In this document: one piece after another, positions 1 to 58,370 of the stretch
How the letters are laid out: each line of letters begins with the position of its first letter
How positions within the stretch are numbered: position 1 is the stretch's first letter
Source of the DNA: Costus lasius
Taxonomy: Eukaryota > Streptophyta > Magnoliopsida > Zingiberales > Costaceae
DNA length: 64,000 nucleotides
NCBI GenBank assembly: GCA_027563935.2
Contig: CM050454.1
Location: 26,533,501-26,597,500 of the forward strand
Direction: 5' to 3'
The notes under the pieces: generated by a model
Databases searched by the model: none
What the model was told of the DNA's origin: nothing
Seen by the model: the letters and a program-made list of their open reading frames with translations, nothing else
Made by a program: the position numbers and the translations under genes

Positions 1-1228
1 CTTGAATCATGTTAGGGCACTAGTGATAGACATAGGATTGCCGTCTCCTTGTTTAAGGAGTGTGATGTTCTAAAGGGCCCCCCTTATATGAGATGATTGA
101 GAAAGTGTATGGCCATACCCAGATGACTATGTTGATCTGATCTAATCATGCTCATTGTATTGGAGTAACAAGCTTGACTCGCTTGTCCAATAAGAACATC
201 CAGTGGAAAGGATGCTTGTATGCCTTGTGATGTTGATTCACCTTGTGCTGTGATTTGGGTGTAGTCTTAGAAGACTCTTTCCTTTATATCGGGAGACAGT
301 GATGTGTTGCTAGATACCCCTCACTGATTGTGATAACGAGAGTTATCGTTACCGACATTTAAAGGAAACCCTTAGGGTCGCACAATTTGGTGATATGGCT
401 TACTTGAGTCAGATCGTGTGGACTGGATTGTTTTGATTCAGTTTAAAGGAGTTTAAACTCTGATTGTAAGTGAGATCCAGTCTGATCATGTTTGATTGAT
501 TAGGGCTTGAGATCGGTAAGCTTCGATCGAGAGTGTGGATGCTAGATCGGTGAGATCAAGAGCATCATGAGATGTACGGTTAGATCTTGAATCTTCATGG
601 TTCATAGAGATTTAGACCATGGCTTGGGTTGGTTCTTTTGGTCTTTGGACCAATTGGAATTGAACCGAATTCAATTGATCCGGTTCACATTTGTGTTCGA
701 TTGGTTCAATTGAATTGGCGTTGGGGATAAGTTCACAAGACATGAACGCATGTCTTGATGACTTTCCTTAATGGGAAGTCTTGAAAACGCCTAACGCCAA
801 ATAACGCAAAAGCTTAATGTTCCTTGTGTCTTTCGAAGCTCTCTCTCGTGGGTGGTGTGTGGACGATCTTGGAGAAGAGCTCTCGGCGACAAGGAAGAAC
901 ATCTCATCTCCTCAACACCAAAGGGCACCTTGGCAATTGTTGCTAGCACATCAAGTTGCGCAAGAAGTAAGCCTTCATCCTTTGTGTGTGTCTTCTTTGG
1001 AGGAGAGCCCTCTTCGGCCTCTAGCTTCCAAGCCGCCACCCTTACATGGCTATGGTAAAAGATCTCAAACTTGATCTTTGGTTAATTATAAAGTTGATCA
1101 TTTACATGAGTTCATGCAAACGATTTTATTGAAACTCTAGAAGAATACATTTCTGCATGTTCTAGGGTTTGCCCCCCTCTTGAAAGGGGTTTTTCATGCT
1201 TGCGCTCCCCCTTGAAGGGGACCCTTCA
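1..1228 (+). repeat. 5' LTR of element A (3' part)
   Basis: Base 1 corresponds to 7384 in the 3' LTR of the same element, so about 487 bases lie outside the window. It ends in CTTCA at 1228, directly before the PBS. Contents include the palindrome AGTCTT(A/G)GAAGACT followed by TTTATATC near 265-290, the inverted repeat 760-780, and ATG GCT ATG at 1046-1054 followed by GT (see the intron entry). The end carries two C-run/G-run hairpins. This LTR has an extra roughly 30-base tail relative to the LTRs of I and H. Confidence 0.93.
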
Positions 1229-15032: not shown

Positions 15033-16826
15033 GGTGTTCGTTGCTGCAGGTATCTACAACAATGCAAGAACAGCAAGGTCAGTATCAATGTATAAGAATC
15101 GATCAGGACTTAAGAAAGATTCTTTTTCTCACTATTTTATCAGGCGTGAAAAATCCAGCAAAACAGCCCGAAAGAGTAGAACTCTTTTAGTGAGATGGGA
15201 TCCAGATTTCATACTTGGTCTCCGCGTCCCGCTCAGGCGAGATAAGATGCACAGAGAGTACAAGCACTAGTTTCTGGTAGGCATCCCAGCCAATCGCCAA
15301 CCCGTGCGATTCCCCTTCATCTGGGCAATCCAGCAGACTGTGCCAACTGAGTTGGTACAACACAGTCTCTGATCCCACAGATGGCTGCCTCCATGTGCTA
15401 CCATATGTGTAGCCTACACGGTCAAGCTGACCCGACCTACTCCCTGGACCACCACGTGCTATGCTGAGCAACGAGAAGGGATAAATCCCTACTCTGTAAC
15501 ACGCAGGTGTAATCCCGCACCGTCTGAAGATAGATGGACGTGCCCACTGAGTGGGTACAACACGGCTCCAACGATAATCAGAACAGTGAGGTTTCGCGTC
15601 AGAAGGCTTACGAGCTTGATATTTTAGCGTTGGATTTTAACGGTCTTTTATCTTCTTCACTATCATGCAATTCCTATGGTGATAGCAGAAGATAAACTTA
15701 AACATGCAATTCTAATATTATACAATAAAAGAAAGCATGTATCTTATGTGGTAAAAGCCCATAGCCCTAGAAAACCTTAACCTAACTTAAGTCTTCATTT
15801 GCTCTTCATGGGTCTTTTGCTGCTCATCTGGCCCAAACCTGGGCCCAAGCGCCATCTGCAGCACAGGTGCGCCCACCAGGGAAAATGCGCCTGGTCCTAG
15901 GGTCGAACCCTAGACCTCCCACCTGGTCCAGCCACTTGCTGCATGCGCCTCTGCCAAGTGTGCACTGTGCTCTTGTCTAATTAAATTACAAATTTAACTA
16001 TCTAGACAAGATTGACACGCAGGTCAATTACATTTTATAAATTAAAGCAATGTGATACGCAGATCACAATAATTAATTTACAATTTTTAAAATCCAGGCA
16101 CGCAGGCCCCAGCACAGCACACAATTAATATGGGCAGCCCACATAAGACTAAATAGACAAACATATGCATCAATCAACAACCATGTGATCCATCATAAAA
16201 ATTAAAATTTTCGAAAACCCCATGGGATCAATTTTAATTTTCCTTATTTGCCCTACAACCTTACAACGGTCCATTACTAGGGATCCACTCATCCAACCTA
16301 GTCAGATCCACTGCCCTTACATGCACCAAGTCCTAACTGACTTGAGTCGACCATAAGGTCAACCATGCATGCGTCAGGGCTGAACGACCACACTGAGGTC
16401 TGGCAAGCGGGCGTGACCCCGGGCCTAACTCAGGTGCGTTCATTAATCGTCTCAGTCAGACATCGCTACACACCTGTCTGCAGTCGACCTATAGCCACCA
16501 TAGGCTTGCGCCAAGGTGCTATCTGGTCGACCCATTCAGGCTGTCAGATAGTCTGATCAGACTGTTGGATCTAAACTAGGGGTGACTTCAACCCTAATAA
16601 CCCGTCTAAGGGTTTAATGCAAGGCCTTGATCTAATGATATACGCGCAAGTGTTAAGTTTTAAAGAAAACAAAACTACTAGAAGCGCATACTATTTATAC
16701 ATGCGTCAACTTGCAACAAATGTTCTAGCATGTAGTTACGCATGTCATGAATAAACATTAGATCAAATGAACTAGCACAATCATGGATCACGTAAAGCAT
16801 CAAGCAATCAAGATAACATACAGTAA
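15033..16826 (-). other. Leader of C
   Basis: Minus-strand leader with the proposed 3' splice site (AG at 15055-15054, 21-base exon 15053-15033), both bulged hairpins (15336-15367 and 15539-15564) and the tRNA-like segment (15900-15957). The matching proposed donor is in the 5' LTR: ATG GCG ATG at 17018-17010, then GT at 17009-17008. The intron would be 1,956 bases. Confidence 0.75.
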
Positions 16827-16840: not shown

Positions 16841-18563
16841 TGAAGTTACCCCTTTAGCCTAAGGGGGGTCCCCTTCTAGGGGGAGCAAAAACCCTAAAGT
16901 GATGGCGCATAAAATTTTGACTTGCGGAAACTAGGGTTATAGAATCGACTTGCATGTTAAAAGATCAACTCGATATAAGATTATCAAAGATGATGCAAAA
17001 CGATCATACCATCGCCATGGAGTAGGTGTTGCCTTGGAAGCTAAAGTCGCAAGTGCCACTTCTCCAAAGTCCCGCACACAAGAGGATGATGGCAAACTCT
17101 TTGTCGCTCCTTGTGCTAGCAAGGCTTCAAAGAATCCTTGATCGAATGAGAAAGGGATGGAGATCTTTTCTCTTGGCCGAATCCTCCTCAAATCTTCAAG
17201 CGTCGCCACACTCACGAGAGTCGAGAGGAATATGGGCGAGAGGAATAATTGTGTTGGCGAAAATAGGGTATATCCTATTTTGGATGAGCGCTCTCTCCAA
17301 GTGGAGATCATGGTTACTAAAAATAGTAACCACTCCTCACCCCAACGTTCACGCCAAGTGAACTTGTCGCCAACTCCTCTCCCCTTGAACCATGTGCTCA
17401 TCAAGTGAGCCGGTTCACTTTGGTTCGGTTTAAGAACCAATCAAGCCAATGATCTAGTCTAGATCTTAAATAAACCCTAAGGTTCCCGATCTAACCGTCG
17501 ATCTCCTCGATGCCCCTGATCTGACCGATCTGGCATCTATTCTCTCGATCGAAGCTTACCGATCTTAAGCCCTAATCAATCAAACATGATCAGACCAGAT
17601 CTCACTCACAATCAGAGATTAAATCCCTTTAAACTGAACCGAAACAATTCAGTCCACACGATCTGACTTAAGTAAGCCATATCATCAAATTGTGCGACCC
17701 TGAGGGTTTCCTTTAAATGTCGGTAACGATAATTCTCATTATCACGATCAGTGAGGGGTATCTAGCAACACATCACTGTCTCCCGATAGAAAGGAAAGAG
17801 TCTTCCAAGACTACACCCAAACCACAGCACAAGTGTGAATCATTTCACAAGGCATGCATATTTCCTTTGCCACTGGATGTTCTTATTGGACAAGCCTGTC
17901 AAGCTCGTAACTCCAATATGATGAGCATGATTAGAACAGATGAACACTGTCACCTGGGTATGGCCATACACTTTCTCAATCATCTCATCCAGGGGGCCCC
18001 TTTAGAACATCACACTCCTTAAACAAGGAGACGGCAATCCTATGTCTATCACTAGTGCTCTAACCTGACTCAAGCTCACCATCCAAGATAGTCTATAATC
18101 ATTATCTTTCAAATGATATTGAACCATCTCAAAACAATGACAATCATCATTCAGAAAACACAAGTGATCTCAAGTCAGAGGAAATGTGCCACTTGTCTTA
18201 ATCAAGGAATATTCACATTGTGACAAACAATTGAACATCCTAGTAGGGTCTGTCCAGTACATCCAATGTACCCATGAGTCTACATCTTATTCCATGCTCG
18301 AAGCATCCTATAAGATTAGAACACATATTAGTCTTAATCATATCAAGGCTGTCTCATGTTCACCAAGATATATCGACTAAGGACATAATAGTATGTCAGC
18401 CGAGCTGAACAGCTTTGAGACATTATTCAGAAGAACATATATTGCAGCAGACAATGTAGCTAACTGAATAACAACCATGCCTTTATAAACATAACAGTTT
18501 ATTACATGATACAAATACATTCCCATAGGCCTCAAACATTAGCCTTAAGGGCATACCCCAACA
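16841..18563 (-). repeat. 5' LTR of element C
   Basis: 1,723 bases, the same length as its partner. Palindrome copy at 17312-17331. The U3 start (18385-18563) resembles G, H and I, not the partner LTR of this element. CACGC follows at 18564-18568. Confidence 0.95.
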
Positions 18564-20344: not shown

Positions 20345-22047
20345 TGTTGGGGTATGCCCTTAAGGCTAATGTTTGAGGCCTTTGGGATTGTAAAAGTATC
20401 ATGTAATAAACTCTTGTGTTTATAAAGGCATGGTTGTTATTCAGATTGTTACCTTGTCTGCTGTAATAAGTGTACTTCTGAATAATGTCTCAAAGCTGTT
20501 CAGCTAGGCTGACAGGCTATAAGTCCTTAGTCGAGATATCTTGGTGAACTGAGACAGCCTTGATATGATTGAGACTAATATGAGTGCTAATCTTATAGGA
20601 TGCTTCGAGCATGGAATAAGATGTAGACTCATGGGTACATTGGATGTACTGGACAGACCCTACTGGGATATTCCATTGCTTGTCACGATGTGAATGATCC
20701 CTGTAAGCAGCAAGTGGCACATGTCCTCTGACTTGAGATCACTTGTGTTTCTAAATGATGATTGTCATTGTCTTGAGGTAGTTCAATATCATTTGAAACA
20801 TAATGATTATAGACTATCTTGGATGGTGAGCTTGAGTCAGGTTAGGGCACTTGTGATAGATAAAGGATTGCCGTCTCCTTGTTCAAGGAGTGTGATGTTC
20901 TAAGGGGCCCCCCTATATGAGATGATTGAGATAGTGTATGGCCATACCCAGATGACTATGTTCATCTGATCTAATCATGCTCATCGTATTGGAGTTACAG
21001 GCTTGACATGCTTGTCCAATAAGAACGTCCAGTGGCAAAGGATACATGTATGCCTTGTGAGTTTGATTCACACTTGTGCTATGGTTTGGGAGTAGTCTTG
21101 GAAGACTCTTTCCTTTATATCGGGAGACAGTGATGTGTTGCTAGATACCCCTCACTGATCGTGATAACGTAAGTTATCGTTACCGACATTTAGAGGAAAC
21201 CCTCAGGGTCGCACAATTTGGTGATATGGCTTACTTGAGTCAGATCGTATGGACTGAATTCTTTGAGTTCAGATTAGAGGGATTTAATCTCTGATTGTAA
21301 GTGAGATCTGGTCTGATCATGTTTGATTGATTAGGACTTGAGATCGGTAAGCTTCGATCGAGAGAGATGATGCTAGATCGAAGAGATCAGGGGCATCAGG
21401 AGATGAATGGTTAGATCATGAGCCTTGGGGTTCGATTTGGTCTAGACCAAGTGGCTTGAGCTATTTCGGTTTGGTTTGAAGAACCAAAGTCGATTTGACG
21501 TTATTGGATTGAACCGGTTCACAAAGGTGAACGCTTGGTTCAATGTCAATAGGCGTTTTAGGGTTGGCTTAAACGCATGGCTTGATTGTCTTCCATTTAT
21601 GGTAAGTAATCAAACCGGTTTTTGCTCCAACGCCAAAAACGGATATGCGTTTTGCTCTTTGCTTCAACGCCTAGCTCTTTGGTTGGGCGATCGGAAAAAA
21701 AAGAGAGAAGCTTTGGCAAGAGGAGCTCTCGGCCAAGGGGGAATCATCTCATCACCCCCTTTCCATTCGACAAAAGAAAAGCTTGGGTGTCTTGCTAGCA
21801 CAAGGGACCGCAAGGAGTAAGCATCTTCATCTTGTGTGTGAACTTGTGGAGGAGATCTAATTTGTTCTCTTCATCCAAGCCGACTTCCAAGCATATGGCG
21901 TTGGTATGAATTTCCCTCTCAATCTATTCAATCGGTTATAGTTGAACATATGGCATGCAAATGATCTTAAACCCTTGCTTCCGCTAGCATATTTTTCATT
22001 AGCGCCATGACTAGGGTTTTTGCCCCCCATTTTAAGGGGTTTCTTCA
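20345..22047 (+). repeat. 5' LTR of D
   Basis: TGTTGGGG to TTCTTCA. Candidate core promoter signals are TATAAA at 20421-20426, TTTATAT at 21114-21120 preceded by the palindrome AGTCTTGGAAGACT (21094-21107), and an imperfect inverted repeat 21584-21611. ATG GCG TTG at 21895-21903 is followed by GTATGA. Which TATA is used cannot be told from sequence. Confidence 0.95.
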
Positions 22048-23860
22048 ATTGGTATCAGAGCTTGGCTCTATGCATGCTATTATGTTTGCTGATGTGATCC
22101 ATACATGTTGCGCTTACTTGATGATTTTGCGCTTACTTGATGATTTGGTTACATGAACTTTGCGCTTGTATCATGGTTACCTAAAGTTTGCGCTCCCCCT
22201 TGAAGGGGACCCCCTAAAGTTTGCGCTCCCCCTTGAAGGGGACCCCCTTAGATCTAAGGGTTATCAACATAAATGAAGCATGTTGTTTGATTGTTTGCGC
22301 TTGATCTATATGTTTTATAAAACTTACATCTTGCGCGGCTGATTAGATCTAAGGTGCCCCTACCATAAATCCTTAGATGGGTTGATGGGGTTGAAAGCAT
22401 CTTCTAGGTTAGATCCAACTAGTCTGATCAGACCATCTGACAGCCTAGATGGGTTGACTAGATAGCACCTGTGCGCAAGCACGAGGTGGCTATAGGTCGA
22501 CTGCATCCAAGGCGTGTAGCGAGGTCTGGTTGAGACAACTTCTGAACACACTTGAGTTAGGCCCGGGGTCACACCCGCTTGCCAAAACTCATGATGGTGG
22601 TTCAGCCCTTGGCGCATGCATGGTTGACCATTAGGTCAACTCGGGTCAGTTAGGACTCGGTGCATGCAAGGGGAAAGGATCTAACTAGATGGATGAGTGG
22701 ATCCCCATCAATGGACCATTGTAAGGTTATAGGGCTCATAAGGAAATTAATATTGATGCCATGGGTTTTTTCAAAATTTTAATTTCATGAATGGATCACA
22801 TGTTGATTGATGCCTATGCTTGTTTATTTAATCTTATGTGGGTTGCCCTAATGTGTGCTGTGCTGGGGCCTGCGTGCCTGGTAAATTATAAGTTAATATT
22901 ATTGTGATCTGCGAATCACTTTTTCATTAATTTATTGTATAATTGACCTGCGAGTCAAAGCTTGTCTAGATAGATCAAATTGTGTTTGATTAGACAAGAG
23001 CACAAAGGCACACATCCAAGAGGGGCATTCACCTGGTGGTGCACCTAAGGTGCTCTTGGCGCTAGGGCACTGGGTTGGACCAGATGAGATGCAATGGAGC
23101 TCAAGTGAAGACTTAAGTAAAATTAAGGTCTTACTAGGGTTCATGGGCTTTTTACCACATAAGATCATGCTTTCTATTTATTATTTAAATAATTAGAATT
23201 GCATGTTTATGTTTATCTTCTGCTATAGCCATAGAATATGCCTGATAGTAAGAAGATTAAAAGACCGTTAAAATCCAACGCTAATATATCAAGCTCGTAA
23301 GCCTTCTGACGCGAAACCTCACCGTTCTGACTATCGTTGGAGCCGTGTTGAACCCACTCAGTGGGCACGTCCATCTATCTTCAGACGGTGCTGGATTACA
23401 CCTGCGTGTTACAGAGCAGGGATTTATCCCTTCTCGTTGCTCAGCATAGCACGTGGTGGTCCAGGGAGTAGGTCAGGTCAGCTTGACCATGTAGTCTACA
23501 TATGTGGCGCATATGGTAGCACATGGAGGCAGCCATCTGTGGGATCAGAGACTGTGTTGTACCAACTCAGTTGGCACAGTCTGCTGGATTGCCCAGATGA
23601 AGGGGAATCGCACGGGTTGGCGATTGGCTGGGACAGCCTACCAGAAATTAGTGCTTGTCATCTCTGTGCATCTTATCTCGCCTGAGCGGGACGCGGAGAC
23701 CAAGTATGAAATCTGGATCCCATCTCACTAAAAGAGTGTTACTCTTTCGGACTGTTTACTGGATTTTTCAGTCAGACAAAATAGTGAGAAAAGAATCTTT
23801 CTTAAGTCCTGGATTGATTCTGAACATTGATACTAACCTTGCTGTTCTTGCTTGTTGTAG
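21904..23860 (+). other. Proposed leader intron of D
   Basis: Donor GTATGA follows ATG GCG TTG. The branch-site match TACTAAC at 23831-23837 is perfect, its A lying 24 bases before the AG at 23859-23860, with a T-rich tract between. Exon 2 begins Ile-Pro-Ala-Ala-Thr-Asn-Thr (23861-23881), in frame both with the LTR ATG and with gag. Inferred length 1,957 bases. This is the best-supported example because the gag-pol frame is also open. Confidence 0.6.
22050..22061 (+). other. Primer-binding site of D
   Basis: TGGTATCAGAGC, two bases after the LTR; complementary to plant initiator tRNA-Met. Confidence 0.94.
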
Positions 23861-23881
23861 ATTCCTGCAGCAACGAACACC
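22062..23881 (+). other. Leader of D
   Basis: Non-coding. It has two local tandem repeats: TGCGCTTACTTGATGATT at 22108-22125 and 22128-22145, and a 33-base period unit containing GCGCTCCCCCTTGAAGGGG from about 22180 to 22247. The second unit resembles the extra tail of A's LTR end. Both bulged hairpins are present (23344-23369 and 23550-23581). The tRNA-like segment is absent. Confidence 0.8.
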
Positions 23882-26800
23882 ATGAGCTTCAATGTGCGAT
23901 CCCTACTGGAAAGGGAGAAGTTTGCTGGGCCGAACTTCTCTGACTGGTTTGGACACCTTAAGATCGTTCTTAAGGCAGAGAGGAAACTGTATGTCCTCGA
24001 GACGGCGATACCGCCGCAGCCCGCTCCGAACGCCGCAAGGGCGGTTCGGGATGCCTACGAAAAGCACGTCAATGATAGCATTGATGTCGCTTGCCTGATG
24101 CTAGCGTCTATGACGCCACCGCTGCAGCGTCAGCATGAGGATATGTCGGCTATAGAGATTATAGCGAACCTCAAGATGCTGTATGCTGCACAGGCGAGGA
24201 CTGAGCGCTATAATCTGACGAAGCTCTTCTTTCAGAGCAAACTGGCTGAAGGGAGCCCAGTGGGAGCTCACGTGCTCAAGATGATTGGGCACAAGGAGGC
24301 TCTAGAGAAACTGGGGCATACCATCAACCAGGAGCTTGCTGTGGATATTATTCTGCAGTCTCTCCCGCCTTCTTTCGATGCGTTCATCATTAACTTTAAT
24401 ATGAACAAAATCGATTGTACGCCGGCAGAGCTGCTGAATATGCTCTTGACTACTGAGGAAACTCTGAAGGGTAAGCCTTCAACCTCTGTCTTGATGGTTC
24501 CTTCTAGGAACAAGAAGAAGGGGAAGAAGGGCAAGGCCCCTGTCAAGAACTACAGTAAGGCTCTGAAACAGAAGGTGAAGCGGTCGAAGGATAACAGGTG
24601 TTTCCACTGTGGCCAGCTGGGTCACTGGAAAAAGGACTGCAAAGCGCTCCAAGGAGATAAGAGGGGAAGCATTGCTTCTGGCTCAGGTATATACGTGACG
24701 GAAGTCATGGTTTCATCCTCTTCTATATCATGGGTGTTGGACACTGCATGTGGAGTTCACATTTGTTCAAATGTGCAGGAACTCAAGAGAAGAAGGCAGG
24801 TGGGACAGCATGAGGTAGACCTACGAGTTGGAAACGGGGCACGGGTTGCTGCTGTTGCTGTAGGAGACTATTTCATTTCTTTACCATCTGGCATTGTATT
24901 GGAATTAAACAATTGTTATTTTGTACCCAGTATTACCAAGAATATTATCTCTATTCCTGCTCTTGTCAGGAAAGGATTTGCCTTTGAATGCAAGATTTCA
25001 AAGTGTGTTTTAACTTATGATAATATTGTGTATGCGACTGGTTCAATTAACAATGGGTTATTCATGTTGGACATGGAACATTCTATACAAAACATTGATA
25101 ACAAGAAAGCCAAGTATGCTGATCACAGCACCTTGCTATGGCATAGTCGTTTAGGCCATATTAACAAGAAACGCATTAAGCGGTTGCATGATCATGGACT
25201 GCTGGGATCATTCTCCTGTGAGGAGATTGATACATGCAAAGCTTGTTTGATGGGTAAAATGACGAAGTCACCTTTTCCTCATAAAGGTCAAAGGGCTTCA
25301 GGTTTACTTGACCTTATACACAGTGATGTGTGTGGGCCATTTAGTAAACATGCCAGAGGTGGCTATCAGTACTTCATTACCTTTACTGATGATTTCAGTA
25401 GGTATGGGTATGTCTATTTAATGAGACATAAAAGTGAATCTTTTGACAAGTTCAAAGAGTTCAAAAATGAAGTACAAAATCAGTTAGGCCGAAATATCAA
25501 GGCACTTCGTTCTGATCGAGGTGGAGAATACCTAAGTCATACGTTTACTGACTATCTGAAGGAGTGTGGGATTATCTCACAGCTCACTCCGCCAGGAACA
25601 CCGCAGTGGAATGGTGTGTCCGAGAGGAGAAATAGAACGTTACTTGATATGGTTCGTTCTATGATGAGTCAGGCTACTCTACCGTACTCCTTTTGGGGTT
25701 TTGCACTGGAAACAGCTGCAAAAGTACTAAACCGAGTGCCATCCAAGGCAGTTTCAAAGACGCCATATGAATTATGGTATGGGAAACAGCCTAGCTTGAC
25801 ATTTATCAGGATCTGGGGTTGCGAGGCTTATGTCAAAAAGCTCGCCTCTGGGAAACTAGAGAGCAGATCTGACAAATGCATCTTTGTCGGTTACCCTAAG
25901 GAAACTAAGGGTTATTATTTCTTCGATCCCAAGGAGAACAAGGTATTTGTTGCTCGGACGGCCATATTTCTTGAGAAGGAATTTCTTCTGCAAGAGGCCA
26001 GTGGGAGAGAAATAAAGCTGGATGAGATTCCAGAAGAAGGACAAAGTAGTCAAGCACAGATGGATGAGCCTGAGCCGGTAGATCAGGTTATTGAACAACC
26101 TGAGGCTCAAATATCACGGGAACCGCGAAGATCGGGAAGGATCCGTCGACAGCCTGAGCGCTATGACGGAGTCTACATCATTGATAATGATGAACCCCTC
26201 ACTTATGCAGATGCGGTCAGTGGACCGGAGTCAGCTAGATGGCTTGAAGCTATGCGAGCCGAAATGGACTCCATGTCTGATAACCAAGTCTGGGATTTGG
26301 TTGATCCGCCTCCGGGAGTAATCCCTATAGGCTGTAAATGGATCTTCAAGAAGAAGATTGACATGGATGGTAACGTGGTTACCTATAAAGGCAGGCTAGT
26401 TGCGAAAGGTTTCAAACAAATCTACGGGATAGATTATGATGAAACTTTCTCACCTGTAGCCATGTTTAAGTCTATTCGGATTCTTTTCGCGATAGCTGCA
26501 TATTATGATTTTGAGATCTGGCAGATGGATGTGAAGACAGCTTTCCTTAATGGAAATCTGGATGAGGATGTGTTTATGACACAACCTGAGGGTTTCACTA
26601 ATCCAGCAGATCGGCATAAAATATGCAAGTTAAAGAAGTCCATTTATGGACTGAAGCAAGCATCAAGAAGCTGGAATATTCGTTTTGATGAATCAATCTC
26701 TGAGTTTGGATTCATCAAGAACGAAGATGACCCGTGTGTTTATAAGAGGTTTAGTGGGAGCGTAATTACATTCCTAATCCTCTACGTCGATGATATCTTG

Positions 26801-27766
26801 ATCATTGGAAATGATATTCCTGAACTGCATGCGGTTAAAGCATGGTTAGGAAAATGTTTCCAGATGAAAGATCTAGGAGAAGCAGCCTATGTGTTAGGTG
26901 TGAAGATCTACCGGGATAGATCTAAGAGGCTTCTCGGGTTGTGCCAGAGTACTTACATCGATAAGGTCCTGGAGAGATTCCATTTAGAGAATTCTAAACG
27001 TGGATATCTTCCAGTCAGACATGGTCTGAATCTTTCGAAGAGTCAGTGTCCACAAACACAGACTGAGAAAGATGAAATGGACAATACGCCTTATGCTTCG
27101 GCTATTGGGTCCATCATGTATGCGATGTTGTGTACTCGCCCAGACGTCGCTTACGAGTTAAGCGTGACCAGTCGATTCCAAAGTAATCCAGGTTTGGCGC
27201 ACTGGATTGCGGTCAAGAACATTTTAAAATATCTGCGGAGGACCAAAGATATGTTCTTGATATATGGTGGTCAGGAAGAACTCAGTATAGAGGGATATAC
27301 TGACGCTTCGTTCCAGTCGGACCAGGATGATTTCCGATCGCAATCAGGCTATGTTTTTAGCTTGAATGGTGGAGCAGTGGTGTGGAAGAGTTTCAAACAG
27401 TCAACTGTTGCTGATTCCACAACAGAAGCCGAGTATGTTGCAGCCTCGGAAGCATCCAAGGAGGCAGTGTGGATTCGTAAGTTCGTGAGAGAACTTGGTG
27501 TCGTTCCTTCGAGTGCAGATCCTTTGGTTATCTTCTGTGATAACACTGGAGCAATCGCACAAGCAAAGGAACCACGGTCGCACCAGAAGTCCAAGCACAT
27601 ACAGAGACGGTTTCACTTGATCCGGGAGATCATTGATCGAGGCGAGATCAAAATATGCAAGGTTCATACAGATGACAATCTGGCAGACCCACTTACCAAG
27701 CCTCTGGCGCAGCAGAAGCATGAGAAGCACTGTAATAATATGGGTTTGAGATTTCTCAACCATTAG
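23882..27766 (+). CDS. gag-pol: Gag-Pol polyprotein of D, intact
   Basis: 1,294 residues in one frame, the usual size and order for Ty1/copia. Gag is followed by a Lys-rich stretch and a CX2CX4HX4C knuckle (C240, C243, H248, C253). The protease motif is Leu-Asp-Thr-Ala at D287, where most relatives have Asp-Ser/Thr-Gly. The integrase finger is H421, H426, C452, C455 and the catalytic set D482, D545, E581 with D35E spacing. RT has D883 (QMDVKTAF) and YVDD at 968-971. RNase H has D1141, E1182 and D1220. No stop or frameshift is seen. The ATG at 23882 is used as the start, but an upstream start in the LTR joined by splicing is proposed. The protein is expected to form cytoplasmic particles that reverse transcribe the RNA. 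The motifs are seen; activity is inference. Confidence 0.96.
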   Translation: MSFNVRSLLEREKFAGPNFSDWFGHLKIVLKAERKLYVLETAIPPQPAPNAARAVRDAYEKHVNDSIDVACLMLASMTPPLQRQHEDMSAIEIIANLKMLYAAQARTERYNLTKLFFQSKLAEGSPVGAHVLKMIGHKEALEKLGHTINQELAVDIILQSLPPSFDAFIINFNMNKIDCTPAELLNMLLTTEETLKGKPSTSVLMVPSRNKKKGKKGKAPVKNYSKALKQKVKRSKDNRCFHCGQLGHWKKDCKALQGDKRGSIASGSGIYVTEVMVSSSSISWVLDTACGVHICSNVQELKRRRQVGQHEVDLRVGNGARVAAVAVGDYFISLPSGIVLELNNCYFVPSITKNIISIPALVRKGFAFECKISKCVLTYDNIVYATGSINNGLFMLDMEHSIQNIDNKKAKYADHSTLLWHSRLGHINKKRIKRLHDHGLLGSFSCEEIDTCKACLMGKMTKSPFPHKGQRASGLLDLIHSDVCGPFSKHARGGYQYFITFTDDFSRYGYVYLMRHKSESFDKFKEFKNEVQNQLGRNIKALRSDRGGEYLSHTFTDYLKECGIISQLTPPGTPQWNGVSERRNRTLLDMVRSMMSQATLPYSFWGFALETAAKVLNRVPSKAVSKTPYELWYGKQPSLTFIRIWGCEAYVKKLASGKLESRSDKCIFVGYPKETKGYYFFDPKENKVFVARTAIFLEKEFLLQEASGREIKLDEIPEEGQSSQAQMDEPEPVDQVIEQPEAQISREPRRSGRIRRQPERYDGVYIIDNDEPLTYADAVSGPESARWLEAMRAEMDSMSDNQVWDLVDPPPGVIPIGCKWIFKKKIDMDGNVVTYKGRLVAKGFKQIYGIDYDETFSPVAMFKSIRILFAIAAYYDFEIWQMDVKTAFLNGNLDEDVFMTQPEGFTNPADRHKICKLKKSIYGLKQASRSWNIRFDESISEFGFIKNEDDPCVYKRFSGSVITFLILYVDDILIIGNDIPELHAVKAWLGKCFQMKDLGEAAYVLGVKIYRDRSKRLLGLCQSTYIDKVLERFHLENSKRGYLPVRHGLNLSKSQCPQTQTEKDEMDNTPYASAIGSIMYAMLCTRPDVAYELSVTSRFQSNPGLAHWIAVKNILKYLRRTKDMFLIYGGQEELSIEGYTDASFQSDQDDFRSQSGYVFSLNGGAVVWKSFKQSTVADSTTEAEYVAASEASKEAVWIRKFVRELGVVPSSADPLVIFCDNTGAIAQAKEPRSHQKSKHIQRRFHLIREIIDRGEIKICKVHTDDNLADPLTKPLAQQKHEKHCNNMGLRFLNH

Positions 27767-27786: not shown

Positions 27787-29489
27787 TGTTGGGGTATGCC
27801 CTTAAGGCTAATGTTTGAGGCCTTTGGGATTGTAAAAGTATCATGTAATAAACTCTTGTGTTTATAAAGGCATGGTTGTTATTCAGATTGTTACCTTGTC
27901 TGCTGTAATAAGTGTACTTCTGAATAATGTCTCAAAGCTGTTCAGCTAGGCTGACAGGCTATAAGTCCTTAGTCGAGATATCTTGGTGAACTGAGACAGC
28001 CTTGATATGATTGAGACTAATATGAGTGCTAATCTTATAAGATGCTTCGAGCATGGAATAAGATGTAGACTCATGGGTACATTGGATGTACTGGACAGAC
28101 CCTACTGGGATATTCCATTGCTTGTCACGATGTGAATGATCCCTGTAAGCAGCAAGTGGCACATGTCCTCTGACTTGAGATCACTTGTGTTTCTAAATGA
28201 TGATTGTCATTGTCTTGAGGTAGTTCAATATCATTTGAAACATAATGATTATAGACTATCTTGGATGGTGAGCTTGAGTCAGGTTAGGGCACTTGTGATA
28301 GATAAAGGATTGCCGTCTCCTTGTTCAAGGAGTGTGATGTTCTAAGGGGCCCCCCTATATGAGATGATTGAGATAGTGTATGGCCATACCCAGATGACTA
28401 TGTTCATCTGATCTAATCATGCTCATCGTATTGGAGTTACAGGCTTGACATGCTTGTCCAATAAGAACGTCCAGTGGCAAAGGATACATGTATGCCTTGT
28501 GAGTTTGATTCACACTTGTGCTATGGTTTGGGAGTAGTCTTGGAAGACTCTTTCCTTTATATCGGGAGACAGTGATGTGTTGCTAGATACCCCTCACTGA
28601 TCGTGATAACGTAAGTTATCGTTACCGACATTTAGAGGAAACCCTCAGGGTCGCACAATTTGGTGATATGGCTTACTTGAGTCAGATCGTATGGACTGAA
28701 TTCTTTGAGTTCAGATTAGAGGGATTTAATCTCTGATTGTAAGTGAGATCTGGTCTGATCATGTTTGATTGATTAGGACTTGAGATCGGTAAGCTTCGAT
28801 CGAGAGAGATGATGCTAGATCGAAGAGATCAGGGGCATCAGGAGATGAATGGTTAGATCATGAGCCTTGGGGTTCGATTTGGTCTAGACCAAGTGGCTTG
28901 AGCTATTTCGGTTTGGTTTGAAGAACCAAAGTCGATTTGACGTTATTGGATTGAACCGGTTCACAAAGGTGAACGCTTGGTTCAATGTCAATAGGCGTTT
29001 TAGGGTTGGCTTAAACGCATGGCTTGATTGTCTTCCATTTATGGTAAGTAATCAAACCGGTTTTTGCTCCAACGCCAAAAACGGATATGCGTTTTGCTCT
29101 TTGCTTCAACGCCTAGCTCTTTGGTTGGGCGATCGAAAAAAAAAGAGAGAAGCTTTGGCAAGAGGAGCTCTCGGCCAAGGGGGAATCATCTCATCACCCC
29201 CTTTCCATTCGACAAAAGAAAAGCTTGGGTGTCTTGCTAGCACAAGGGACCGCAAGGAGTAAGCATCTTCATCTTGTGTGTGAACTTGTGGAGGAGATCT
29301 AATTTGTTCTCTTCATCCAAGCCGACTTCCAAGCATATGGCGTTGGTATGAATTTCCCTCTCAATCTATTCAATCGGTTATAGTTGAACATATGGCATGC
29401 AAATGATCTTAAACCCTTGCTTCCGCTAGCATATTTTTCATTAGCGCCATGACTAGGGTTTTTGCCCCCCATTTTAAGGGGTTTCTTCA
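27787..29489 (+). repeat. 3' LTR of D
   Basis: 1,703 bases, essentially identical to 20345-22047. Ends TTCTTCA, followed by the GAGTC duplication. Confidence 0.97.
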
Positions 29490-37226: not shown

Positions 37227-39059
37227 GGTGTTCGTTGCTGCAGGTATCTACAACAATGCAAGAACAGCAAGGTCAGTATCAATGTTAAGAATCAATCAGG
37301 ACTTAAGAATGATTCTTTTTCTCACTATTTTATCTAGCTGAAAAATCCAGCAAAACAGCCCAAAAGAGTAGAACTCTTTTAGTGAGATGGGATCCAGATT
37401 TCATACTTGGTCTCCGCGTCCCGCTCAGGCGAGATAAGATGCACAGAGAGTACAAGCACTAATTTCTGGTAGGCAGTCCCTGCCAATCGCCAACCCGTGC
37501 GATTCCCCTTCATCTGGGCAATCCAGCAGACTGTGCCAACTGAGTTGGTACAACACAGTCTCTGATCCCACAGATGGCTGCCTCCATATAGCTAACATAT
37601 GCCCCATATGTAGCCTACATGGTCAAGCTGACCTGACCTACTCCCTGGACCACCACGTGCTATGCTGAGCAACGAGAAGCGATAAATCCCTTCCCTGTAA
37701 CACGCAGGTGTAATCCCGCACCGTCTGAAGATAGATGGACGTGCCCACTGAGTGGGTACAACACGGCTCCAACGATAGTCAGAACAGTGAGGTTTCGCGT
37801 CAGAAGGCTTACGAGCTTGATATTTTAGCGTTGGATTTTAACAGTCTTTTATCTTCTTGACTATCATGCAATTCCTATGGTGATAGCAGAAGATAAACTC
37901 ATGCAATTCTAATTATAAAAGCAATAAATAGAAAGCATGCTGATCTTATGTGGTAAAAGCCCATTAAGCCTAAGTTAGACCTTAAATTAAACTTAAGTCT
38001 TCACTTGCTTTTCTTCATGGGGCTTTTGCTTCTCATCTGGCCCAACCTAGGGCCTAAGCGCCATCTGCAGCTCAGGTGCGCCTACCAGGGAAAATGCGCC
38101 TGGTCCCAGAGTCGAACCCTGGACCTCCCACCTGGTCAAGCCTCTGCTGCAAGCGCCTCTGCCAAGTGTGCTCTGTGCTCTTGTCTGATTAATTTACAAA
38201 TTAATCTATCTAGACAAGATTGACTCGCAGGTCAATTACATTTTATAAATTAAATGCAATGTGATGCGCAGATCACAATAAAAATTAATTTACAAATTTT
38301 AACCAGGCACGCAGGCCCCAACACAGCACACATTAATTAGGCGTCCCACATAAGATTAAATAAACAAGCATATGCTTACAATCAACATGTGATCCATTCA
38401 TGAAAATAAAATTTTTCAAAAACCCATTGGCATCAATTTTATTTTCCTTATGTGCCCTACTACCTTACAACGGTCCATTAATAGGGATCCACTCAGCAGA
38501 CCTAGTCAGATCCACTGCCCTTGCATGCACCAAGTCCTAACTGACTTGAGTCGACCCAGTGGTCAACTATGCATGCGCTAGGGCTGAACAACCTACATGA
38601 GTTTTGGCAAGCGGGTGTGACCCCGGGCCTAACTCATGCGTGTTCACTAGTTGTCTCAACCAGACCTCGCTACACGCCTTTGATGCAGTCGACCTATAGC
38701 CACCTTATGCTTGCGCATAGGTGCCATCTGGTCGACCCATCTAGGCTGTCAGATGGTCTGATCAGACTAGTTGGATCTTAACTAGAGATGACTTCAACCC
38801 TACTAACCCGTCTAAGGGTTTAATGTAGGTGCGGCTTAGATCTAATGATAGTCGCGCATGTCATTAGGGTTTATAGAAAAACAACTACAACAACATGATA
38901 GATGCGCTATCAACACACATGCGCCAAGGAAACATACAAGTTTCGGCATGAATGAACAATGTACATGTAAGTCTCGCATGTAAGAAAGATCTAAGCATAC
39001 AAGGATCACAGCAGGATAGCAATCATATAAATCATGCATATAACCGCTCTGATACCAAT
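37227..39059 (-). other. Leader and PBS of F
   Basis: Minus-strand non-coding leader with both bulged hairpins (37529-37560 and 37740-37765) and the tRNA-like segment (38109-38165). The PBS TGGTATCAGAGC is at 39057-39046. F's LTR starts at 39060, but only four bases of it precede the H insertion. Confidence 0.88.
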
Positions 39060-39063: not shown

Positions 39064-40745
39064 TGTTGGGGTATGCCCTTAAGGCTAATGTTTGAGGCCT
39101 TGGGTTTGTATCGGTATCATGTAATAAACTGTTATGTTTATAAAGGCATGGTTATTATTCAGTTAGCTACATTGTCTGCTGCAATATATGTTCTTCTGAA
39201 TAATGTCTCAAAGCTGTTCAGCTAGGCTGACAGGCAATAAAGTCCTTAGTCGATATATCTTGGTGAACATGAGACAGCCTTGATATGGTTAAGACTAATA
39301 TGTGTTCTAATCTTATAGGATGCTTCGAGCATGAAATAAGATGTAGACTCATGGGTACATTGGATGTACTGGACAGACCCTACTAGGATATTCAATTGTT
39401 TGTCACAATGTGAATAATCCTTGAATGTAACAAGTGGCACATTTCCTCTGACTTGAGATCACTTGTGTTTTCTAAATGATGATTGTCATTGTTTTGAGGT
39501 AGTTCAATATCATTTGAAACATAATGGTTGTAGACTATCTTGGATGATGAGCTTGAGTCAGGTTAGGGCACTAGTGATAGACATAGGATTGCCGTCTCCT
39601 TGTTTAAGGAGTGTGATGTTCTAAAGGGACCCCTGGATGAGATGATTGAGAAAGTGTATGGCCATACCCAAGTGACTATGTTCATCTGATCTAATCATGC
39701 TCATCATATTGGAGTTACAAGCTTGACACGCTTGTCCAATAAGAACATCCAGTGGCAAAGGAAATATGTATGCTTTGTGAGTTGATTCACACTTGTGTTG
39801 TTTTTGGGTGTAGTCTTGGAAGACTCTTTCCTTTATATCGGGAGACAGTGATGTGTTGCTAGATACCCCTCACTGATCGTGATGACGTGAGTTATCGTTA
39901 CCGACATTCAAAGGAAACCCTCAGGGTCGCACAATTTGATGATATGGCTTACTTAAGTCAGATCGTGTGGACTGAATTGTTTGAGTTCAGTTTAAAGGGA
40001 TTTAATCTCTGATTGTGAGTGAGATCTGGTCTGATCATGTTTGATTGATTAGGGCTTCAGATCGGTAAGCTTCGATCGAGAGATTGGATGCTAGATTGGT
40101 CAGATCAGGAGCATCAAGAGATTGACGGTCAGATCAAGAACCTAAGTGTTTGTTATGGTCTGGACTGAATGCTTGGCTTATTTGGTTATTGAACCGAACC
40201 AAAGTGAACCGGCTCATGAATGAGCGCATGGTTCAAGGGTGAAGAGAAGTTTGCGCTTGGGGTAAACCCATGGTCGCATGAGTGCATGAACGTGGGAGTG
40301 TTTCTATTTTTAGAAACCATGACTCCTAAACGTGACATCGCCTCACGTTACTCCTCTCTCACGCCTATTGTCGCTCCTTCCTCTCGTCGCTTGCTCATTC
40401 GAGAGTGCATGTGGTGTTGACGAAAGGAGAAGGAAGTTTTTCGCCAAGCCAAGAAGATCTCATCCCTTCCATACGAGAAGGATACTTGGACGATCCTTGC
40501 TAGCACAAGGGACGACAAGAAGAAGCTATACCTCATCTTGTGTGCGACAATTTGGAGGAGACCTCTCTTGTTCTCTAGCTTCCAAGACGCCATCTAGAAA
40601 TGGCTATGGTATGGTTCTATCACTACTATACAATCGGTTTTGTTAATCATAATACCATGCAAGATCTAGAAACCCCCATTCCGTTGCTTTCATTCTTCAT
40701 ATGCGCCTATGATTTAGGGTTTCGCCCCCTTGTGGGGACCTTTCA
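39064..40745 (+). repeat. 5' LTR of H
   Basis: TGTTGGGG to CCTTTCA. Palindrome GTTTC-TATTTTTA-GAAAC at 40300-40317, with an outer GGAGT/ACTCC pairing. ATG GCT ATG (40600-40608) is followed by GTATGG. Near-identical to B's LTR except for the first 180 bases of U3. Confidence 0.96.
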
Positions 40746-40747
40746 AA

Positions 40748-40759
40748 TGGTATCAGAGC
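40748..40759 (+). other. Primer-binding site of H
   Basis: TGGTATCAGAGC two bases after the LTR; complementary to initiator tRNA-Met. Confidence 0.94.
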
Positions 40760-42338: not shown

Positions 42339-42343
42339 ATTAG
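42339..42343. repeat. Target duplication of I (ATTAG), left copy
   Basis: ATTAG recurs at 51472-51476, immediately after I. Joining the flanks restores the leader seen uninterrupted in A and D. Confidence 0.95.
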
Positions 42344-44038
42344 TGTTGGGGTATGCCCTTAAGGCTAATGTTTGAGGCCATGGGAATGTATCTGTATCAT
42401 GTAATAAACTGTTATGTTTATAAAGGCATGGTTGTTATTCAGTTAGCTACATTATCTGCTGCAATATATGTTCTTCTGAATAATGTCTCAAAGCTGTTCA
42501 GCTAGGCTGACATGCTATAAGTCCTTAGTCGAGATATCTTGGTGAACATGAGACAGCCTTGATATGTTTGAGACTAATATGTGTTCTGATCTTATAGGAT
42601 GCTTCGAGCATGGAATAAGATGTAGACTCATGGGTACATGGGATGTACTGGACAGACCCTACTAGGATGTTCAATTGTTTGTCACAATGTGAATATTCCT
42701 TGAATGTGACAAGTGGCACATTTCCTCTGACTTGAGATCACTTGTGTTTTCTAAATGATGATTGTCATTGTTTTGAGATAGTTCAATATCATTTGAAACA
42801 TAATGATTATAGACTATCTTGGATGGTGAGCTTGAATCAGGTTAGGGCACTAGTGATAGACATAGGATTGCCGTCTCCTTGTTTAAGGAGTGTGATGTTC
42901 TAAAGGGGCCCCCTGGATGAGATGATTGAGAGAGTGTATGGCCATACCCAGATGACTGTGTTCATCTGATCTAATCATGCTCATCATATTGGAGTTACAA
43001 GCTTGACAGGCTTGTCCAATAAGAACATCCAGTGGCAAAGGAAATTTGCATGCCTTGTGAATTGGATTCACACTTGTGCTGTATTTTGGGTGTAGTCTTG
43101 GAAGACTCTTTCCTTTATATCGGGAGACAGTGATGTGTTGCTAGATACCCCTCACTGATCGTGATAATGAGAATTATCGTTACCGACATTTAGAGGAAAC
43201 CCTCAGGGTCACACAATTTGATGATATGGCTTACTTAAGTCAGATCGTGTGGACTGAATTGTTTGGGTTCAGTTTAAAGGGATTTAATCTCTGATTGTAA
43301 GTGAGATCTGGTCTGATCATGTTTGATTGATTAGGGCTTGAGATCGGTAAGCTTCGATCGAGAGAATGGATGCTCGATCGGTGAGATCAGGAGCATCAGG
43401 AGATGAACGGTTAGATCTGGAGCCTTAGGGTTTAATTGAGATCTAGACCATATTGCTTGGGTTAATTGGTCTTGGACCAAACCGAAATGAACCAGCTCAT
43501 TGGTTGAGCGTGTGGTTCAATTTAAGAGAGGTTTGCGATTGGGGTAAACCCATGATCGCATATGGAAGAGTGGCTTTCTATTTTTAGAAAGCATGTCACT
43601 TACGTGACCACGATTCTTGTGGTCTCTCTTCACGCCTCCCTCTCGCTCTATTGTCGGCGCTTGACTTTGCTCTTGAGGCATTCTCTCGTGAAGAAGAAGT
43701 GGACGACATTGGGAGAGTTTTCGCCAAGCAAGAAATTTTTCTCTTTCCCTTTCCATTCGATCAAGGATACTTGGACGATCCTTGCTAGCACAAGGGACGA
43801 CAAGAAGAAGCGCATCTTCATCTTGTGTGTGACGATTTGGAGAAGATCTTCTTTGGTCTTTGCTTCCAAGGCGCCATCCAATCGATGGCCATGGTATGAA
43901 TCACATCCTATTTATTTAAGCTTTCAAAGTTGATCATCTTATACATGCTTTGCGATTCTTGAAACCCCCTTCCGCTGCTATATTCCCTTATATGCGCCAT
44001 GCTGGGTTTCGCCCCCCTCTTGAAAGGGGTCCCTTTCA
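42344..44038 (+). repeat. 5' LTR of I
   Basis: Carries a perfect palindrome with stem GCTTTCTA and TAGAAAGC around TTTT (43573-43592). ATG GCC ATG (43885-43893) is followed by GTATGA. Ends CCCTTTCA. Confidence 0.96.
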
Positions 44039-44040
44039 AT

Positions 44041-44052
44041 TGGTATCAGAGC
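44041..44052 (+). other. Primer-binding site of I
   Basis: TGGTATCAGAGC, two bases after the LTR. Confidence 0.94.
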
Positions 44053-45874
44053 GTGGTTAAACGCATGTTTATATGATTGCTTTGGTGTTGTGATCCATGA
44101 ATGCCGATATGTGCTTAGATCTATAACATGCGTAAATTCACATGTTAAATTATATCATGCCGAAACTTGTTTTTGTTTCATTTGCGCATGTATGTTGTAT
44201 GTTGGCGCATCTTACTTGGTTTGTACAAAACTTGAACACTTGCGCGATTAACACTAGATCTAAGACCTTGCTGTAAACCCTTAGACGGGTTACTAGGGTT
44301 GAAGTCATCCCCTAGGTTAGATCCAACAGTCTGATCAGACCATCTGACAGCCTGAATGGGTCGACCAGATAGCACCTTGGCGCAAGCCTATGGTGGCTAT
44401 AGGTCGACTGCAGACAGGTGTGTAGCGATGTCTGATTGAGACAACTAATGAACACACATGAGTTAGGCCCGGGGTCACACCCGCTTGCCAGACCTCATTG
44501 TGGTTGTTCAGCCCTGGCGCATGCATAGTTGACCTTATGGTCGACTCAAGTCAGTTAGGACTTGGTGCATGCAAGGGCAGTGGATCTGACTAGGTTGGAT
44601 GAGTGGATCCCTAGTAATGGACCGTTGTAAGGTAGTAAGGGCGAATAAGGAAATTAAAATTGATCCCATGGGGTTTTCGAAAATTTTAATTTATGTAATG
44701 GATCACATGATTGCTGATTGGATGCATATGTTTGTCTATTTAGTCTTATGTGGGCTGCTCATATTAATTGTGTGCTGTGCTGGGGCCTGCGTGCCTGGGA
44801 TTTAAAATTGTAAATTAATTATTGTGATCTGCGCATCACATTGCTTTAATTTATAAAATGTAATTGACCTGCGTGTCAATCTTGTCTAGATAGTTAAATT
44901 TGTAATTTAATTAGACAAGAGCACAGAGCACACTTGGCAGAGGCGCTTGCAGCTTGTGGCTAGACCAGGTGGGAGGTCTAGGGTTCGACCCTAGGACCTG
45001 GCGCATTTTCCCTGGTGGGCGCGCCTGTGCTGCAATTGGCGCTTGGGCCCTGGTTTGGGCCAGATGAGCAGCAAAAGACCCATGAAGAGCAAGTGAAGAC
45101 TTAAGTTAGGTTAAGGTCTCACTAGGGCTATGGGCTTTTACCACATAAGATTCATGCTTTCTTTTATTTATTGTTTAAATATTAGAATTGCATGATTAAG
45201 TTTATCTTCTGCTATCACCATAGGAATTGCATGATAGTGAAGAAGATAAAAGACCGTTAAAATCCAACGCTAAAATATCAAGCTCGTAAGCCTTCTGACG
45301 CGAAACCTCACTGTTCTGATTATCGTTGGAGCCGTGTTGTACCCACTCAGTGGGCACGTCCATCTATCTTCAGAGGGTGCGGGATTACACCTGTGTGTTA
45401 CAGAGTAGGGATTTATCCCTTCTCGTTGCTCAGCATAACACATGGTGGTCCAGGGAGTAGGTCGGGTCAGCTTGACCGTGTAGGCTACATATGTGGCGCA
45501 TATGGTAGCACATGGAGGCAGCCATCTGTGGGGTCAGAGACTGTGTTGTACCAACTCAGTTGGCACAGTCTGCTGGATTGCCCAGATGAAGGGGAATCGC
45601 ACGGGTTGGCGATCGGCAGGGACTGCCTACCGGAGATTAGTGCTTGTACTCTCTGTGCATCTTATCTCGCCTGAGCGGGACGCGGAGACCAAGTATGAAA
45701 TCCGGATCCCATCTCACTAAAAGAGTTCTACTCTTTCGGGCTGTTTTGTTGGATTTTTCAAGCCTGATAAAATAGTGAGAAAAAGAATCTTTCTTAAGTC
45801 CTGATTGATTCTTATACATTGATACTGACCTTGCTGTTCTTGCATTGTTGTAGATACCTGCAGCAACGAACACC
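44053..45874 (+). other. Leader of I
   Basis: Non-coding. tRNA-like segment at 44934-44991 with the compensated T-arm (CTAGGG/CCCTAG). Bulged hairpins 45333-45358 and 45539-45570. Proposed intron 43894-45853 (1,960 bases), then exon Ile-Pro-Ala-Ala-Thr-Asn-Thr 45854-45874. Confidence 0.8.
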
Positions 45875-49756: not shown

Positions 49757-49776
49757 ATTAAGTGCAAGTGGGAGAT

Positions 49777-51471: not shown

Positions 51472-51708
51472 ATTAGTGCTTGTACTCTCTGTGCATCTTA
51501 TCTCGCCTGAGCGGGACGCGGAGACCAAGTATGAAATCTGGATCCCATCTCACTAAAAGAGTGTTTACTCTTTCGGACTGTTTAATGGATTTTTCAGTCA
51601 GATAAAATAGTGAGAAAAAGAATCTTTCTTAAGTCCTGATTGATTCTTAACATTGATACTGACCTTGCTGTTCTTGCATTGTTGTAGATACCTGCAGCAA
51701 CGAACACC
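51472..51708 (+). other. Leader of H, part after I
   Basis: Begins with the ATTAG duplication. Includes the branch-like TACTGAC at about 51657, TTGTAG with AG at 51686-51687, and the 21-base exon start 51688-51708. Confidence 0.88.
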
Positions 51709-55590: not shown

Positions 55591-55610
55591 ATTAAGTGCA
55601 AGTGGGAGAT

Positions 55611-57293: not shown

Positions 57294-57504
57294 TTGAAGG
57301 TCCCCAGAAGGGGGCGAAACCCTAAAGCATGGCGCGTATAAAATTTTAAACAGCGGAAGAGGGTTTCTAGGGGATCGGATTCATGCATAACATATGATCA
57401 ACTTGTTAAACCCGATTGCAAACATAGAAGATGTCATACCGATGCCATTTCTAGATGGCGTCTTGGAAGCAGAGAGCGATAGGGATCTCCTCCAAAGGAT
57501 GCGC
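57294..57504 (-). repeat. 5' LTR stub of F
   Basis: Follows the H target duplication. It reads as the LTR 3' end on the minus strand (TGAAGGTCCCC on plus), with ATG GCA TCG at 57448-57440 followed by GT (57439-57438). Similarity stops near 57504, where plus-strand LTR sequence of J begins at GCGCATGGTTCAA. The exact breakpoint is uncertain by about 10 bases. Confidence 0.8.
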
Positions 57505-58047: not shown

Positions 58048-58370
58048 AGTGGTAATAGTTGAACTGAGTTGAAGTTGAATTTCCTTCTTTGGAGCTCACT
58101 TAGGTGAGTGAGTGGTCAGGTGAATTTTGCCTATGTATTGTAGATGCATTACACGTGCTATGCTTCTATCCTATCATGATGCGACATTTTATTCAAACAG
58201 GAAAGTAAACCAACATGTAACTACATCTTTGATTGGGGGTGGATCTAACCTATCATGATGCGATGCAATGCAAAAAAAGGAAAGTAGGATCCTAGGAAGA
58301 AAACCCATACCTGAGAGGTTTCCTTTGGACCCTAGTGTACCTGCTTGGAGCTAGTCTTGGCCCCCCATCA
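58048..58370 (+). other. Remnant leader of J
   Basis: No gene. It includes an imperfect direct repeat around CTATCATGATGCGA (about 58171-58212 and 58250-58287). Gag, protease and integrase expected here are missing, so a large internal deletion lies between the leader and the RT-linker homology that begins near 58370. Confidence 0.6.

Follow-up and report, generated by a model that had tools for sequence, protein, structure and literature searches.

In yeast Ty1, the gag start codon lies inside the 5' long terminal repeat (LTR) and the frame runs through the primer binding site (PBS) with no intron. The elements described here, a family of Ty1/copia retrotransposons from the plant Costus lasius, resemble Ty1 in having a predicted gag start codon in the LTR and differ from it in the intron that would follow. 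They were analyzed in a stretch of 64,000 nucleotides (nt) of forward-strand DNA (GenBank assembly GCA_027563935.2, contig CM050454.1, positions 26,533,501 to 26,597,500), referred to as the window, which is made up of nested elements that all belong to one family, and in further copies from the same 1.28-Gb genome.

BARE1 of barley, placed in the Angela lineage in a published table (PMC6317226), displays alternative splicing and separate RNA pools for translation and packaging (PMC3735527). Both BARE1 and the present family are Ty1/copia; for the present family, splicing and RNA pools are proposed. The BARE1 intron is 104 nt long, lies at the gag/protease border and yields a Gag-only RNA (PMC3735527). 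The original prediction had offered BARE1 as a precedent, which holds for distinct RNA pools but not for the place of the intron; here, unlike in BARE1, the leader itself would be the intron, a start codon would be supplied and the spliced RNA would keep gag-pol. For Arabidopsis EVD, transcripts that retain the intron are found mostly in the nucleus and are translated less (PMC8892269), which would fit the division of RNAs proposed here. Splicing of the EVD/shGAG intron takes out the protease region, is linked to early polyadenylation and favours Gag over Pol (PMC12786077, PMC8892269); as these accounts describe it, this intron supplies no start codon, unlike the candidate leader intron.

Splicing of Ogre occurs between gag-prot and the reverse transcriptase (RT) (PMC6317226), and in sunflower two expressed elements undergo splicing and have short isoforms with a truncated GAG (PMC7730604). 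A 2025 review treats plant LTR elements as generally intronless, with Ogre and EVADE as exceptions (PMC12786077). The P4 mRNA of rice tungro bacilliform virus is similar to the arrangement proposed here in that a donor within a short leader open reading frame (ORF) is joined to a distant ORF, but the virus is an LTR-less pararetrovirus and the splice serves ORF IV, not the capsid-polymerase ORF (PMC5902531). For Diaspora, a soybean Ty3/gypsy element, a program placed splice donors in the LTR and acceptors on either side of the start of gag; unlike the present case this is prediction only, and its authors state that the relevance is unknown (PMC1142308). In the literature searched, which took in few subscription papers, no account was found of a leader intron providing the start codon of gag.

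Results

A candidate leader intron between the LTR and gag

The window contains six gag starts. Element D provides the reference for the features discussed below.

20345..22047, + strand: 5' LTR of element D, TG...CA, target duplication GAGTC
21895..21903, + strand: coding part of exon 1, ATGGCGTTG, ATG GCG TTG (Met-Ala-Leu), a block kept in 38/38 scoreable genome copies
21904..21909, + strand: proposed 5' splice site GTATGA, directly after exon 1
21904..23860, + strand: proposed leader intron, 1957 nt, with the end of U5, the PBS, the leader and 51 ATGs
22050..22061, + strand: PBS of D, TGGTATCAGAGC
23831..23837, + strand: branch-point-like TACTAAC, a CTRAC word
23855..23860, + strand: proposed 3' splice site TTGTAG, which doubles as an in-frame stop
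23861..23881, + strand: start of exon 2, ATT CCT GCA GCA ACG AAC ACC (Ile-Pro-Ala-Ala-Thr-Asn-Thr)
23882..23884, + strand: internal gag ATG, its homologue missing in 10/28 donor-sampled copies
23861..27766, + strand: gag-pol frame, with gag, zinc knuckle, integrase, then RT
27787..29489, + strand: 3' LTR, a 99.9% match to the 5' LTR, with the same start-codon/donor block at 29337

We estimate a probability of about 0.9 that these features belong to an abundant Ty1/copia family in which removal of a leader intron of ~1.95 kb joins a gag-pol start codon located in the 5' LTR to gag, the spliced RNA serving as mRNA and the unspliced RNA as template. This interpretation, already advanced in the original prediction, is supported by donor-type conservation, an exon 1 free of ATGs, a reading frame that is kept across the proposed junction, and copies without the internal gag ATG (10/28). 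The parts that had been named for element D (ATG GCG TTG, GTATGA, TACTAAC, the T-rich tract, TTGTAG, the 21-base exon in frame and the ATG at 23882) were all found in place. The four junctions that had been listed, 21903/23861, 1054/2978, 43893/45854 and 17010/15053, have correct coordinates, and two further pairs were found: 40608/51688 (element G) and 57440/37247 on the minus strand (element F), both of them presumptive pairings. As had been claimed, the D intron would take with it the end of U5, the PBS, the leader and the upstream ATGs. The exon starts of the other five elements are as follows.

1046..1054, + strand: element A exon 1, ATG GCT ATG, donor GTAAAA
2978..2998, + strand: element A exon 2 start
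17010..17018, - strand: element C exon 1, ATG GCG ATG, donor GTATGA
15033..15053, - strand: element C exon 2 start
43885..43893, + strand: element E exon 1, ATG GCC ATG, donor GTATGA
45854..45874, + strand: element E exon 2 start
57440..57448, - strand: element F exon 1, ATG GCA TCG, donor GTATGA; split from gag by the nested G, pairing presumptive
37227..37247, - strand: element F exon 2 start, presumptively paired with 57440
40600..40608, + strand: element G exon 1, ATG GCT ATG, donor GTATGG
51688..51708, + strand: element G exon 2 start; E is nested in the leader, presumptively paired with 40608

The uninterrupted pairs (A, C, D and E) have introns of 1923-1960 nt, and 45 to 51 ATGs were counted per intron in A, D and E.

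Two samples of genomic copies were used in addition to the window. The acceptor-sampled set comprised 40 loci fetched upstream of the acceptor; its search pattern contained the acceptor and the ATG, and these loci can therefore test the donor side only. Two loci were left out of the counts, L064 because no PBS was found and L068 because its LTR is cut by an insertion, leaving 38 scoreable copies. The donor-sampled set comprised 29 elements chosen by the donor alone to avoid a choice based on the acceptor. All of these are on contig C1, with LTR pairs 7-9 kb apart that were picked by eye among the matches listed; L031, L048 and L050, which were already in the first sample and all have the ATG, and one 4.6 kb pair were skipped. 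L115 was left out of the donor-sampled counts as its stretch holds no acceptor; an ATG-less acceptor lies ~3.6 kb further on, at C1:30926829.

The proposed start-codon/donor block in the LTR

ATG-GCN-NNG directly followed by GTA was present at 14 of 15 LTR ends in the window, and the 15th (at -34991) has ATT first and ATG as its third codon. Thirteen of the 15 ends extend LTRs found by similarity; those of F and at 57837 were found via the motif itself. Nine LTR subfamilies are represented among these ends. From 330 nt before the ATG to 175 nt after it (F truncated) they share 50-77% identity, and all nine retain the block, one with ATT first. Among the 39 genome loci with a PBS, ATGGC-NNN-GGT was exact in 36, had one change in 2 and was lost in 1 to the insertion that cuts the LTR. 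The distance from ATG to donor was 9 nt in 38/38 copies, none having been excluded for failing this.

Conservation within the block is uneven. The wobble base of the Ala codon is free (T in 13, A in 12, C in 7 and G in 6 of the 38 copies; 0.08 bit), while the preceding C carries 2.0 bits and the three positions of the next codon carry 0.8, 1.7 and 2.0 bits; ATG-GC ahead of the wobble and G/GT behind it (slash, splice site) are fixed or nearly so. The 38 proposed introns begin with GTATGA (21 copies), GTAAGA (5), GTATGG (4), GTGAGA (4), GTAACG (2), GTAATA (1) or GTAAAA (1), and position +3 of the donor, which the search left free, is A in 33/36 and G in 3/36. The bases after the putative exon 1 vary in the manner of a splice donor, not in that of a short ORF.

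An LTR anchor, CTTCCAAG, located ~20 nt upstream of the LTR ATG, was found with at most 1 mismatch in 38/39 PBS loci, and ATG-N6-GTR lay within 34 nt of it in 37/38. Control anchors had ATG-N6-GTR nearby in 0/13; the anchor test also allowed ATG-N3-GTRWG, which the control did not, but all 37 hits have ATG-N6-GTR. Across the genome, the anchored exact donor pattern gave 22,040 matches and its reversed control 0. As had been suggested, the leaders were scored for splice sites, using a hand-written plant weight matrix, and the donor was mostly top-ranked (rank 1 within 200 nt in 32/38; median rank 2 of 131 GTs across the whole leader). A separate conserved element, CTTGCTAGCACAAGG, is found at 21791-21805 and in homologues, preceding the start codon by ~104 nt. 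The core of this element, TTGCTAGCACA, was present with at most 2 mismatches in 38/38 scoreable genome copies.

Proposed exon 1, acceptor and reading frame

No ATG was observed in the last 100 nt before the start codon in any of the 38 copies, compared to 1.5 expected from shuffling. From -200 to 0 there were 0.16 ATGs per copy, compared to 2.92 expected, and the depletion stops ~250 nt upstream. The cap site would lie near -250. The proposed intron has a mean of 50 ATGs compared to 30 expected at 1 in 64, with the surplus mainly in the first 1 kb. The predicted exon 1 is ATG-free and resembles a 5' untranslated region. Its U content is 27.5%, that of the two intron ends 34.7% and 41.9%, and that of the gag start 24.0%. 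A TATA-like word or TATTTTTA was seen 280-316 nt upstream of the ATG in 10/38 copies.

At all six gag starts of the window, TTGTAG is directly followed by AT(T/A)-CCT-GCA-GCA-ACG-AAC-ACC in frame, and a TACTRAC branch-like site precedes TTGTAG and AT in each. TACTAAC itself occurs only in D, where a T-rich tract lies between it and TTGTAG; the other five copies have TACTGAC, which is also a CTRAC word. The joined frame of exons 1 and 2 is stop-free over 23 codons in 38/38 acceptor-sampled copies, and in the same 38 the acceptor TAG puts an in-frame stop ahead of gag in unspliced RNA. When elements were chosen by the donor alone, the acceptor was present in 28/29, as TTGTAG followed by AT every time. 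A conserved donor, acceptor, branch-like site and frame, as expected of a leader intron, are all present.

Copies without the internal gag ATG

The internal gag ATG was present in 6/6 window copies and in 18/28 donor-sampled elements; in the other 10/28 it is replaced by ACA or ACG. In 8 of these 10, gag is open across all fetched codons (351-420). The first in-frame Met of the ATG-less copies is codon 80 in 9/10 and codon 38 in L099; the gag domain covers residues 36-204 of D, so that codon 80 falls inside it. In four ATG-less elements the two LTRs are 99.3-99.8% identical over ~600 aligned nt (24, 0, 0 and 4 gap columns), and these elements have therefore moved recently. The otherwise exact motif without ATG has 5,083 genome matches (control 0), with the openness of gag scored in ten copies only. 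Gag starting only from the Met at 23882, which the original prediction had named as a refuting outcome, cannot hold across the family because of these 5,083 occurrences. An LTR ATG brought in by the predicted splice is the only plausible start codon in the ATG-less elements.

A subfamily of ATG-less gags (L091-L101) has residues of its own, FSDWY for FSDWF and TPE/TPQ for TPP. ATG-less and ATG-bearing gag subfamilies coexist in one genome.

Family membership and nesting

Pfam domains on element D are, in order, Retrotran_gag_2, zf-CCHC, gag_pre-integrs, rve, SH3_retrovirus and then RVT_2. This places the family in Ty1/copia, with a copia-type gag, a zinc knuckle and integrase ahead of RT. The structure agrees: there is an LTR pair, a PBS after the 5' LTR, which we take to be of the initiator Met tRNA type in the case of D, and a 5-bp target duplication in D (GAGTC), E (ATTAG) and G (TTGAA). 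The long LTR and leader hint at membership of the Angela/BARE lineage but are only suggestive. No relatives were confirmed in IMG/VR or in the bacterial and archaeal genomes searched, which is expected for a plant element.

Identity to D is 94-97% for the other five long gag copies in the window. Nesting at 39064-57293 is three deep, with E in the leader of G and G in the 5' LTR of F; this order, and with it the exon pairings of G and F, would follow from nested insertions with target duplications. A decayed pol fragment at 58473-59541, 74% identical to D, belongs to a more divergent relative (region 57507-59541). The LTR end at 57837, which reads ATG GCC ATG followed by GTAAAA, lies in the same region and may belong to the same element as the pol fragment. 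The 3' part of the LTR (e.g. 21460-22047; L031-L070) is hypervariable, with a median identity of 67-70% over 100 random pairs, compared to 95-96% for the gag start and the end of the leader. It looks as if the promoter/R/U5 module were exchanged between copies or very fast-evolving. The family is huge, with 21,926 matches to the start of exon 2 (at most 3 mismatches) in addition to the anchored LTR donors counted above.

Discussion

At the level of sequence, no reading other than a spliced start codon covers all of the evidence, but several observations weigh against this one. The acceptor was only a middling match to the matrix: among the AGs its median rank was 6.5 out of 132.5, and it came first in 2/38. 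Copies share 95% identity over the final 600 nt of the leader in any case, and conservation of the acceptor alone is therefore weak evidence. The donor block ranks among the best-conserved parts of the LTR end but scores slightly lower than four others (TTGCTAGCACA, CTTCCAAG, TTGTGTG and GGGTTT-GCCCCC). A search of genomic DNA revealed no exon-exon junction among the 21,926 places within 3 mismatches, examined best first; matches begin at 2 mismatches and those listed are acceptor-like. Such an absence is predicted by loss of the PBS, but equally by a lack of splicing. Two of the 10 ATG-less copies have stops in gag, at codons 202 and 166, as do 2/7 ATG-bearing copies of the second donor-sampled batch. 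Finally, the ratio of nonsynonymous to synonymous differences (pN/pS) over codons 9-79 is 0.31 in eight ATG-less copies compared to 0.11 in the six window copies, which allows some relaxation before codon 80 in the ATG-less group; over codons 80-300 the values are 0.16 and 0.11. These counts were made without L099, which has a stop in gag, and L117. A cruder count on 7 copies, made with no codon alignment, yielded 0.39 (codons 1-79) and 0.51 (codons 80-250); indels have probably raised the second value.

The pN/pS difference and the two stops are also what would be seen if the ATG-less elements were non-autonomous parasites similar to BARE2, and hence uninformative on the Gag start. In BARE2 a conserved 8-bp deletion has removed the gag ATG, and the element makes use of the particles of BARE1 (PMC3735527). 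However, the eight open gags are still constrained, on both sides of codon 80, and exon 2, the acceptor and the donor have been retained. Parasites without Gag are not expected to keep an open and constrained gag, and we consider this explanation improbable, though it survives better than those that follow.

A leader without any functional intron, in which Gag starts from the internal Met (23882 in D) through internal entry or another bypass of the leader, appears still less probable. The ATG is there in every window copy and in the majority of donor-sampled copies, and the gag start codon of BARE1 is drawn after the leader (PMC3735527). In the copies that lack it, most of them open, translation would instead have to begin at a Met that mostly lies inside the gag domain, and the ATG-less motif is common across the genome. 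Donor-like variation in the LTR and an ATG-poor exon 1 are also left unexplained.

The block could alternatively be read as a conserved four-codon upstream ORF (uORF), ATG-GCN-NTG-GTA-TGA, that drives ribosome shunting of the caulimovirus type, with the GT being incidental. The exact four-codon ORF is present in 21/38 copies, and shunting in pararetroviruses is driven by short uORFs (PMC5902531). In the other 17/38 the ORF is 6 to 42 codons long, so the stop is not conserved, and these 17 have the donor-like starts GTAAGA, GTGAGA, GTATGG, GTAACG, GTAATA and GTAAAA without that TGA. A shunt would still require a gag start codon, which the ATG-less copies are missing, and we regard this account as very unlikely. 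A uORF and an intron are compatible with each other, as rice tungro virus has a donor within a leader uORF (PMC5902531). Least likely of all is a non-AUG start of Gag on unspliced RNA, for which ATT and ACG are available among the first seven codons of exon 2, but which would have to operate behind ~50 upstream AUGs and in a frame that the acceptor TAG shuts immediately upstream in 38/38 copies.

With the spliced start codon as the preferred reading, expression could proceed as follows. Transcription would start ~250 nt upstream of the LTR ATG, and in most copies the first AUG met by a scanning ribosome would be that of ATG-GCN-NNG. Splicing would run from the G/GTR after exon 1 to the TAG just before exon 2, joining ATGGCNNNG at the end of exon 1 to AT(T/A)CCTGCAGC at the start of exon 2, and the product would be Met-Ala-X-Ile-Pro/Thr-Ala-Ala-Thr-Asn-Thr-Gag-Pol. 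The spliced RNA, having lost the end of U5, the PBS and the leader but kept gag-pol, would be the mRNA for all proteins and would not be reverse transcribed. The unspliced RNA would keep the PBS and the replication signals; with a short ORF and ~50 AUGs ahead of gag it would be poorly translated and would act as the template. From this arrangement we infer splicing in the plant and two RNA pools, and splicing efficiency would set the balance between expression and replication. It is rather probable, though less so than the spliced start codon itself, that splicing acts as a master switch, with the replication signals intronic, all proteins made from spliced RNA, and every LTR, solo and 3' LTRs included, being a mobile first exon with promoter, start codon and donor.

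The conflict of LTR retrotransposons, in which one transcript is both mRNA and genome, would be settled here by one splicing event. Placement of the PBS and leader in an intron that parts the start codon from gag would also explain the very long, ATG-rich leader. Annotating gag from its first in-frame ATG can give a wrong start, and elements called dead for a missing gag ATG may therefore be alive. Host genes have potential first exons in the tens of thousands of LTRs that bear a start codon and a donor; if the proposal is true, the 22,040 exact start-codon/donor blocks could capture host exons downstream and provide them with a start codon.

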